Positions 274 to 57,356 of a stretch of 59,363 nucleotides of DNA are shown one piece after another. The stretch comes from Deltaproteobacteria bacterium (GTDB taxonomy: Bacteria; Desulfobacterota; Dissulfuribacteria; Dissulfuribacterales; UBA5754), in contig JAINCN010000034.1 of the NCBI GenBank assembly GCA_036574075.1, positions 1-59,363 on the forward strand, written 5' to 3'. The position numbers and the translations under genes are program-made. Each line of letters opens with the position of its first letter. Position 1 is the stretch's first letter. The notes below the pieces were generated by a model, which was not told where the DNA came from, did not search any database, and was given only the letters and a program-made list of their open reading frames with translations.

Positions 274-447
274 CCTGAATCCGTGGGCCTACGGCCGGGG
301 TATTTGTTCCGTGCGGCAAATAGTCCTCGTCCATGGGGGCAGATTTGCCGACGGCGCCCGTCCATGGGCGCCTCACTCCACAAATACCCCGGCCGTAGGC
401 TTATGCTGTGAAATCGAAAGGTTGAGTGCATATCTCACGGATTCAGG
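274..447 (+). repeat. 174-bp palindromic repeat element, copy 1 (subfamily A)
   Basis: The ends are CCTGAATCCGTGGG and CTCACGGATTCAGG, near-perfect 14-bp inverted repeats. Inside, 287-307 and 380-400 form a perfect 21-bp stem. This stem encloses hairpin A (315-349, GGCAAAT/ATTTGCC plus inner pairs) and hairpin B (353-372, GGCGCCC/GGGCGCC), both with loop GTCCAT. A roughly 35-nt A/T-rich arm follows before the right terminus. There is no plausible ORF. It lies between divergent genes. Confidence 0.9.
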
Positions 448-10934: not shown

Positions 10935-11108
10935 CCTGAATCCGTGAGATATGAACTTAACTTGGCAATTTTTCACAATAAGCCGACGTTCGGGGTATTT
11001 GTGGAGTGAGGCGCCCATGGACGGGCGCCGTCGGCAAATCTGCCCCCATGGACGGGGGCTATTTGCCGCACGGAACAAATACCCCGAACGTCGGCTCACG
11101 GATTCAGG
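10935..11108 (-). repeat. 174-bp palindromic repeat element, copy 2 (subfamily B, reversed)
   Basis: The full-length copy is in the opposite orientation to copy 1. Termini are CCTGAATCCGTGAG and CTCACGGATTCAGG, perfect 14-bp inverted repeats. The long stem reads GCCGACGTTCGGGG on one arm and CCCCGAACGTCGGC on the other, so both sides differ together from copy 1. Both inner hairpins keep the ATGGAC loop (GTCCAT on the other strand). It lies between convergent genes; a partial terminus-like sequence (CCTGAATCCCTGGGA) sits about 45 bp further right. Confidence 0.9.
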
Positions 11109-14508: not shown

Positions 14509-14636
14509 GCCCAGGCTTCAACAGCACACACACTGTAGATTTTTTGGCCAGCCCTGTGTTCGAACTCCTTTTGCGAAAAGTGAATAACCATTCAGTTCGA
14601 ATGTGATTACCACAGCCATCACAGTCTGTCAATTGT

Positions 14637-14835
14637 CCGAATCCATGAGCCAGCTGCCGGACTGCTTGGAAAGCGTGGTGCACATGGATGGGCGCATCGG
14701 CCAATCGGCCCCCATGGACTGAGCCCATTTGCCCTGTCTGCCGTGCCAGAACAGGCAGGCGCACGTAACAAAGCATTGTGGGTGCCGGATTATCCTGTTA
14801 AATCGCAAAGTTGTATTCATATCTCATGGATTCAT
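14637..14835 (+). repeat. Diverged ~199-bp relative of the palindromic repeat (copy 3)
   Basis: Ends CCGAATCCATGAG and CTCATGGATTCA mirror the termini of the 174-bp family with a matching substitution on both sides. The interior keeps CCCCCATGGACTG and a TTCATAT arm, but the long stem and the GTATTTGT block are lost and extra sequence (including CCTGTCTGCC/GGCAGGC-like arms) is present. It lies in the 427-bp gap between atpZ and hemL; nothing else was recognised there. Confidence 0.6.
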
Positions 14836-14935
14836 TCAGCACAATGATAGGCCATGCCTGAATGCGTCCGGGATGTGATCGCAAAACATTATATAAATCA
14901 ATTGGTTGCGTGTATCACCTTGAGAGAGGAATCGT

Positions 14936-20977: not shown

Positions 20978-21157
20978 GGATCCCCCGCTGTGCCGTGTCG
21001 ATCCGCCTATTGAACCTGAGAATCTCAGGTGGGAGTCAAGTCTGAATCTCCGGGTCAGGGCAGTGATCCCCGTCCACTCGATTCAGATATATGACCCCCT
21101 TGTACGGGGTGTTGGCTCAATACACATCAATCGATCACAAACACCGCAGGGGAATTT
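20978..21157 (-). ncRNA. ssrS: 6S RNA
   Basis: About 180 nt on the minus strand between zapA and rny, the same zapA-then-ssrS order as in enterobacteria. The 5' end CCCCTGCGGTGT pairs with the 3' end ACACGGCACAGCGGGGG in a closing stem of about 12 pairs with one mismatch. Further in, ATTGAGCC pairs with GGTTCAAT, and CTGAATC pairs with GATTCAG in the apical arm. ACCTGAG-ATT-CTCAGGT forms the small hairpin often seen on the 3' side of the central bubble. A strong promoter lies directly upstream. 6S RNA binds sigma-70 RNA polymerase. The exact ends are estimates. Confidence 0.85.
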
Positions 21158-21191: not shown

Positions 21192-21200
21192 AAGAAAACC

Positions 21201-21374
21201 CCGAATCCGTGAGCCAATGTTAGGGGTATTTGTTCCATGCGGAAAATGGCCCCCATCCGTGGGGGCAGATTTGCCGTTCGTGCCCCGTCCATGGTCGCCT
21301 CCGTCCATAAACACCCCCGGCCGAAGGTTTATTTGTAAAATCAAATGGTTGACTACAGATCTTCAGGATACAGG
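21201..21374 (+). repeat. 174-bp palindromic repeat element, copy 4 (subfamily A, eroded)
   Basis: Same 174-bp length as copies 1, 2 and 5. The left end CCGAATCCGTGAG is good; the right end (CTTCAGGATACAGG) is decayed. GGGGTATTTGTTCC, the GGGGGCAGATTTGCC half of hairpin A and the AAATCAAATGGTTGACT arm identify subfamily A. The left half of the long stem is largely lost. Confidence 0.8.
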
Positions 21375-22198: not shown

Positions 22199-22372
22199 CC
22201 TGAATCCGTGAGCCTACGGCCGGGGTATTTGTTTCGTGCAGCAAATAGCCCCTGTCCATAGGGGCAGATTTGCCGTTCGAGCCCCATCCGTGGGCGCCTC
22301 CATCCACAAATACTCCGGCCGTAGGCTTATGCTGTGAAATCAAATGATTAACTGCATATCTCACGGATTCAA
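22199..22372 (+). repeat. 174-bp palindromic repeat element, copy 5 (subfamily A)
   Basis: Near-intact copy: left terminus CCTGAATCCGTGAG, right terminus CTCACGGATTCA. Long stem CCTACGGCCGGGG against CTCCGGCCGTAGG with one change. It lies between the stop of glmU (5 bp away) and the start of the ZapB-like gene, so leftward read-through transcripts would contain it as RNA. Confidence 0.88.
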
Positions 22373-22376
22373 AGGT

Positions 22377-30353: not shown

Positions 30354-30506
30354 CCTGAATCCCTGGGCCGACGGCCGAGGTATTTGCGTCCATGGGGGCA
30401 GATTTGCCGTTCGAGCCCCATCCGTGGGCGCCTCCATCCACAAATACCCCGAACGCCGGCTTATTTTGAAAAATGCTAAGTTAAGTTCATATCTCACGGA
30501 TTCAGG
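30354..30506 (+). repeat. Palindromic repeat element, copy 6 (153 bp, subfamily B, internal deletion)
   Basis: Termini CCTGAATCCCTGGG and CTCACGGATTCAGG. Relative to the 174-bp form it lacks about 21 bp, namely the first half of hairpin A (TTCCGTGCGGCAAATAG). The right part has the GTTAAGTTCATAT arm of subfamily B. The long stem is mismatched (GCCGACGGCC against GAACGCCGGC), suggesting exchange or decay. It separates queD from queE. Confidence 0.87.
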
Positions 30507-39060: not shown

Positions 39061-39291
39061 GATTGCGCAAGATGGAAAAACTTCTGGATGGAGTCTCTGG
39101 GGTTAGGACTTCTGTCAACCTATCTTATATGCCTTTCCTCCAAAGGCAAGAGAAAATGGTCAGATGATGGATGGCCTTCGATGGGTGGGCATGTTCTCCT
39201 CGGCACGTTTGATGATCCCACGGACCAGCCGATTTTCAGGCTACCCACGATTCGAGCAAGGCTTTACTTCTCTCCGTCCAATAGCTATTTT

Positions 39292-39434
39292 CTTCCGTGC
39301 GGCAAATAGCCCCCGTCCATGGGGGCGGATTTGCCGTTCGAGCCCCGTCCATGGGCGCCTCACTCCACAAATACCCCGGACGTCGGCTTATTGTGAAAAA
39401 TTGCCAAGTTAAGTTCATATCTCACGGATTCAGG
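39292..39434 (+). repeat. Palindromic repeat element, copy 7 (left end lost, subfamily B)
   Basis: 143 bp remain: from TTCCGTGCGGCAAATAG through both hairpins, ACAAATACCCCGGACGTCGGC, the GTTAAGTTCATAT arm and a perfect right terminus CTCACGGATTCAGG. The left terminus and left stem strand (expected at about 39261-39291) are replaced by unrelated sequence. It ends 5 bp before the methyltransferase ATG. Confidence 0.88.
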
Positions 39435-56775: not shown

Positions 56776-57092
56776 CAGATTTATTCATATACTTTTGTTG
56801 AACTATGCAGTAAAATGCTCTTTGAAAATTTCATACTACCAATTATTCAATGGGCAAATAACGCAGCAGTTAGACCTCTGCGATAACCATACGCTTTGCA
56901 AACATATTATAACACCTTGATTTTATTATTTTCTTATAAGTTCATAAAATGGTTATCGCACACGATAAATCAATAAAATCAATAAACAACAAAAGCATGT
57001 TTACTTTTTTTATTGCTCAACGTGTAATACGCAAGTGGTTAGCAAAAACCATATTGCAATCATTCGTTTTTATGTTCAAAAAAGAAGAGTGT
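56776..57092. promoter_or_regulatory. AT-rich CRISPR leader-like region
   Basis: About 317 bp of A/T-rich sequence between the second cas2 and the first repeat. It contains a perfect 12-bp inverted repeat: TGCGATAACCAT (56879-56890) and ATGGTTATCGCA (56949-56960), 58 bp apart. No ORF. Position and composition fit a leader; the polarity is uncertain because the repeats are degenerate at both ends. Confidence 0.5.
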
Positions 57093-57356
57093 ATTAGAAT
57101 CACTTGACCCGGTTTGAGGGGATTACGTCATAACTTTTTCTCCTTTCCTTTCTTGATTTTTATGGTCATTAGAATCACTTGACCCGATTAGAGGAGATTA
57201 CGACGCAAATCTTGCTTTAAACTCCCCCTTAAATACAGCAAGTATTAGAATCAATTGACCCGATTAGAGGAGTTGACGACCCATCTGCAGCAACAATAAA
57301 TAAATTAGTACCGTCTGCCATTAGAATCACTTGAACCGAGCGGTTTATGAGGCTCA
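57093..57356. CRISPR. Short degenerate CRISPR array, truncated
   Basis: Four units start at 57093, 57168, 57244 and 57320 (spacing 75, 76, 76). The 37-bp repeats share ATTAGAATCACTTGACCCG, and copies 2 and 3 end in ACGAC. Spacers are 38-39 bp and unrelated. Copy 1 has about six changes and copy 4 only its first ~19 bp, after which sequence becomes response-regulator coding (from about 57339). Regular spacing, size and position beside cas1/cas2 support CRISPR. An alternative is tandem transposon-end repeats. Confidence 0.72.

Follow-up and report, generated by a model that had tools for sequence, protein, structure and literature searches.

What places one loop sequence in two hairpins of a single repeated element, and does anything have to read it there? 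The question is raised by a repeat at positions 274–447 of a 59,363-nucleotide stretch of Deltaproteobacteria bacterium DNA (the whole of which is called the window here). The first-pass annotation took the repeated loop to suggest a contact with two sites, such as REP/RAYT recognition or a dimer-binding RNA. A structured mobile family whose members have two hairpins with one loop is indeed present; REP/RAYT recognition was unsupported, and the dimer-binding RNA remained a weak lead.

Two hairpins in a repeated element

The plus-strand repeat at 274–447 is a complete 174-bp MITE copy with a short left arm and a long right arm, and it can be aligned end to end with dozens of other copies. Inverted-repeat ends, CCTGAATCCGTGRG, bound it, and the 14-bp TIR CCTGAATCCGTGAG stands at both termini: the left TIR, CCTGAATCCGTGGG, occupies 274–287 on the plus strand, and its inverted partner occupies 434–447 on the minus strand (CTCACGGATTCAGG when read on the plus strand). 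A 21-bp outer stem, formed by 287–307 (5' arm) and 380–400 (3' arm) of the plus strand, encloses hairpins A (314–350) and B, giving a three-way junction. Hairpin B is exactly 353–372, GGCGCCC-GTCCAT-GGGCGCC, as first annotated, with its loop at 360–365; the GTCCAT hexaloop of hairpin A lies at 329–334, which confirms that both loops have the same sequence. The fold is very stable (z = -8.5 as DNA and -10 as RNA), with none of 200 shuffles equally stable. Since GTCCAT is frequent in the window (69 seen versus 35 expected), the hexamer alone says little; what counts is that both loops of a repeated element carry it.

The window has seven copies of the element. The second (10935–11108, minus strand) is flanked by the 5-bp target duplication TATTC and, like the seventh (39289–39434, plus strand; left end missing, right TIR at 39421–39434), carries GTCCAT in both loops, as had been noted. 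A decayed and rearranged copy occupies 14636–14836 on the minus strand, with its core at 14650–14733. The earlier observation that the loop recurs partly in three further plus-strand copies can be made more precise: those at 21200–21374 and 22199–22373 each have one GTCCAT and one ATCCGT (loops A and B, respectively, in the latter), and the copy at 30354–30506 lacks the 5' arm of hairpin A. The copy at 21200–21374 is diverged, and its fold is no longer significant (z = -1.25); a 6S RNA gene (20978–21155, minus strand; Rfam RF00013, E 3.7e-13) lies 45 bp from it. Elsewhere in the window, at 57092–57339, ATTAGAATCACTTGACCCG occurs as four direct repeats spaced 75–76 bp apart.

A palindromic MITE family

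TIR ends with at most one mismatch occur at 405 sites in the genome (1.99 Mb, 66 contigs), versus none for the reversed control. An unbiased 459-kb sample held 47 cores, which extrapolates to about 200 copies per genome. The elements are 140–206 bp long and lack a transposase gene. Among 34 copies with paired ends, exact 5-bp flanking duplications were found in 10 (shuffled mean 0.42) and 6-bp duplications in four more; the duplicated targets are 78% AT in a genome that is 42% AT. Predicted coding sequence, called for this count with a simple hexamer model, fills about 89% of the sample, yet 44 of the 47 sampled copies fall outside any predicted gene. The congener G001 supplies an empty site: it has CAGATATCATGTTCAG with a single ATCAT where the genome studied here (G000) has ATCAT-MITE-ATCAT (C25:3345-3512), and another insert lies a few bases beyond the empty site. 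The G001 locus equivalent to the window copy at 10935–11108 likewise lacks the element, with diverged flanks. Taken together, the TIRs, the AT-rich 5-bp duplications, the intergenic placement and the empty site in the congener identify the element as a palindromic MITE by the hallmarks set out for such elements (PMC10969869); the family is new, its kind ordinary. Some copies in G001 are identical to sequences of Deltaproteobacteria bacterium UBA5754. The element was not matched in plasmids or viral contigs, and Rfam gave no gathering-score match, the one match over the element being at chance level (E 1.6).

The family exists in several forms. Copy L103 is a 206-bp full palindrome whose arms, about 67 nt each, flank the two hairpins. 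Relative to this copy, the common 174-bp form is missing 33 nt from one arm; in UBA5754 there are also forms with both arms short. UBA5754 further has the three-way-junction core under other ends, CAGGG.TCCGTCAAAGTCA inverted repeats (L057, L061-L064), and in L064 the core lies in the opposite orientation with respect to these ends. Two copies (L053:1501-1696 and L031:807-951) have a CCTGCCTGTC..GACAGGC palindrome at the foot of hairpin A, at the same insertion point, which is possibly another small repeat family.

Across the structure, double-change cells number 72 versus 23 in shuffled data, nearly all of them in the outer stem, where eight of the 21 pairs have changed on both sides among copies. 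Covariation in hairpin A is almost nil (one of 14 pairs), and in about half of the copies a TTCG subtype disrupts three pairs of hairpin B. Correction of one inverted arm against the other could also produce the outer-stem covariation, which therefore need not mean selection on an RNA.

Source and conservation of the common loop

The stems of the two hairpins had been described as different. Their tips are not identical, but the 18-nt tip of A (GCCCCC-GTCCAT-GGGGGC) and that of B (GCGCCC-GTCCAT-GGGCGC) agree at 16 positions, and the two mismatches together make one compensatory flip from C-G to G-C. As good a tip match arose in only three of 20000 shuffles and in three of 20000 random GC hairpins. 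Near-identity with a single compensatory flip makes duplication of a hairpin tip, A from B or B from A, the simplest reading of why the two loops are alike, though convergence or arm-to-arm conversion could also have given tips this similar. The twin tips have a visible consequence: in three sampled copies the stretch between the two GTCCATGGG repeats has been deleted, leaving one hairpin.

Alignment of the loops gave a middling result. Among 62 selected copies from the two genomes, GTCCAT is present in loop A of 45 and in loop B of 52, and almost all the remaining loops read RTCCRT, so that T, C, C and T (TCC-T) are nearly invariant. In the unbiased sample of 47 copies GTCCAT is present in 27 A loops and 23 B loops, old copies lack the loop motif, and loop conservation falls below that of stem A and somewhat above that of the junction. 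The mean minority-base fraction is 0.085 and 0.109 for the two loops, compared with 0.158 for the junction, 0.117 for the outer stem and 0.039 for stem A. The loops thus vary less than the junction, but they rank only 45th and 50th among 100 six-column windows over all copies. They are conserved about like an average stretch of the element, with only TCC-T nearly invariant in both, a pattern that is compatible with a function. The R positions, where the loops vary, are CpG sites or would-be CpG sites; CpG decay is nevertheless probably not the whole cause of loop variation, because most other CpGs in the element change less.

These features are consistent with the following history. The family probably began as a palindrome of about 206 bp, with arms of about 67 bp flanking two short hairpins as its core, and a 33-nt loss from one arm would have given the common 174-bp form. 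The tip of hairpin B would be a diverged duplicate of that of hairpin A, or the reverse, and the loop sequence would have been carried along as a few master copies were recently amplified. A DDE-type transposase acting in trans would recognise the TIRs. As a whole, this account of a trans-mobilised palindrome with a duplicated tip and a loop that hitchhikes with amplification seems to us likely. Nothing in the analysis shows that a protein contact with the loop is needed.

Candidate mobilisers, loop readers and relatives

No autonomous transposon bearing the TIR was found in the genome, in the congener or in about 300 genomes of the phylum. An IS1380-type enzyme as mobiliser is only a guess. 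The C-terminal remnant of an IS1380-type transposase directly adjoins a 62-bp partial element end (L031:1500-1858, G000:C47); despite this remnant, IS1380 was set aside as the parent, as the IS1380-type loci of the order lack the TIR. DDE_Tnp_1 (IS4-like) transposases are absent from both genomes. Two pairs of TIRs 1–2 kb apart (C9:22433 and C6:20453) flank apparent host genes, with no transposase recognised, and single TIR matches in other genomes (L078, L079) had no adjacent transposase in the ORF lists read. The same TIR ends are present across families of the phylum: G303, from another family, has a 162-bp MITE (L086, L092, L094) with an identical TIR, CCTGAATCCGTGAGCC, and 5-bp duplications around an unrelated core that lacks the two hairpins. 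From this comparison of sequences, the hairpin loops appear not to be needed for mobility by this TIR system in general.

The G303 element bears directly on whether the loops might be internal sites for the TIR-binding transposase, through an RTCCRTGRG motif common to loops and TIR. The variant loop B, ATCCGTG, does agree with the TIR over 7 nt (as good in 72 of 20000 shuffles), TCC-T is nearly invariant in the loops, and the second terminal type in UBA5754 likewise includes ATCCGT. However, the consensus loop matches the TIR over only 4 nt, which is not above shuffles, CpG decay may account for the two variable R positions, and the G303 MITE has the identical TIR and 5-bp target duplications but neither hairpin; such internal sites are therefore unlikely. 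We regard as extremely improbable the other DNA-level possibility, that the elements are REP-like palindromes moved by a RAYT (Y1/HUH) transposase reading hairpin loops in single-stranded DNA. The hairpins are strong in DNA folding, and the search for an HUH transposase gene that the first-pass annotation called for did turn up two Y1_Tnp genes in the genome, but no element copy falls in the roughly 1.5 kb around either, and no TIR is near them. Nor is a GTAG tag fixed in the alignments, where GTAG turns up solely within the outer stem and varies there, and a unit of 140–206 bp bounded by TIRs and 5-bp target duplications does not fit; to our knowledge, HUH transposition makes no 5-bp target duplications. 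The possibility thus fails on the ends and duplications, the want of a fixed tag and the absence of copies at the Y1 genes, and the duplications speak instead for a DDE-type enzyme. One Y1 (RAYT-type) gene, a 343-aa frame at L033:1400-2520 (G000:C51), is bounded by its own long inverted repeats of about 20 bp, GACGTTGTTAGTTTAGTTAG and CTAACTAAACTAACAACGTC, and resembles the TIR-flanked Y1 genes (TIRYTs) described in PMC3733652. The REP features used for comparison come from the same source: the likeness consists of repeated intergenic hairpins and Y1 transposase genes in the genome, whereas the element shows none of the further REP traits, namely a length of 20–40 bp, a GTAG (or CGTC) tag and frequent location next to RAYTs (PMC3733652).

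Were the minus strand transcribed, the loops could instead be read in RNA, and two ANGGAX hexaloops would make a candidate twin site for a CsrA dimer, in an mRNA element or a decoy. An ANGGAX hexaloop on a stem is the high-affinity Csr/Rsm consensus, and the minus-strand loops, AUGGAC in form and A[U/C]GGA[C/U] across copies, vary only at its free N and X (PMC4005645). Both hexaloops formed in the minus-strand RNA folds of two of the three copies tested, and the genome has csrA, with the next frame read as fliW. But hairpin A of the window copy folds differently on the minus strand, the core is oriented 13:13 relative to tandem genes and so shows no strand preference, wobble patterns show no clear strand asymmetry once two subtype-defining pairs are set aside, old copies have lost ANGGAX, and the match is to a motif chosen post hoc. 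The Csr/Rsm reading is accordingly unlikely, and a transcribed twin site of this kind highly doubtful. A bolder version holds that the core is a functional module under two sets of transposon ends, whose minus-strand hexaloops would bridge a CsrA dimer, with about 200 copies forming a CsrA sink or regulon; its prospects are slimmer still. The csrA-fliW pair is itself followed directly by a decayed copy (L122:2200-2380, G000:C30). A cis-acting RNA element of the ERIC/Correia type, retained because it alters mRNA stability or termination, would suit the very stable fold, the intergenic placement and the close approach of some copies to a gene, within a few bases; it is very improbable, as tandem, divergent and convergent gaps host copies at 26:11:6, near the general gap make-up of 90:46:27, again with no strand preference.

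The palindromic MITE is most readily placed beside other bacterial MITEs. Like Chunjie of Geobacter uraniireducens, QMITE2 of Coxiella and the Correia element, it is shorter than 500 bp, intergenic and strongly folded, with TIRs, direct repeats in young copies, and full and decayed copies side by side (PMC10969869). It differs from these, as compared by description, in reaching about 200 copies in 2 Mb and in its three-way-junction core with two near-identical tips, and also in having several arm forms and a second set of ends in the congener. ERIC and RU-1 of enterobacteria are likewise imperfect palindromes, of 127–200 bp, in intergenic DNA (PMC2759123), but the element's TIRs and target duplications are plain, and the likeness is drawn from descriptions. 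CsrB/RsmZ-type RNAs share the twin ANGGAX hexaloops on stems with the element's minus strand only; the element is a dispersed repeat rather than an RNA gene, has no Rfam gathering-score match and is known from DNA alone.

The family adds a well-resolved, high-copy MITE to a little-studied Desulfobacterota-type lineage. It also documents, arm by arm, the evolution of a palindromic element, in compensatory changes in the arms, forms of different arm length, deletion between twin tips and a second type of ends. If it were true that the minus-strand hairpins bind CsrA, the family would be a transposon that spreads sites for a global RNA regulator.
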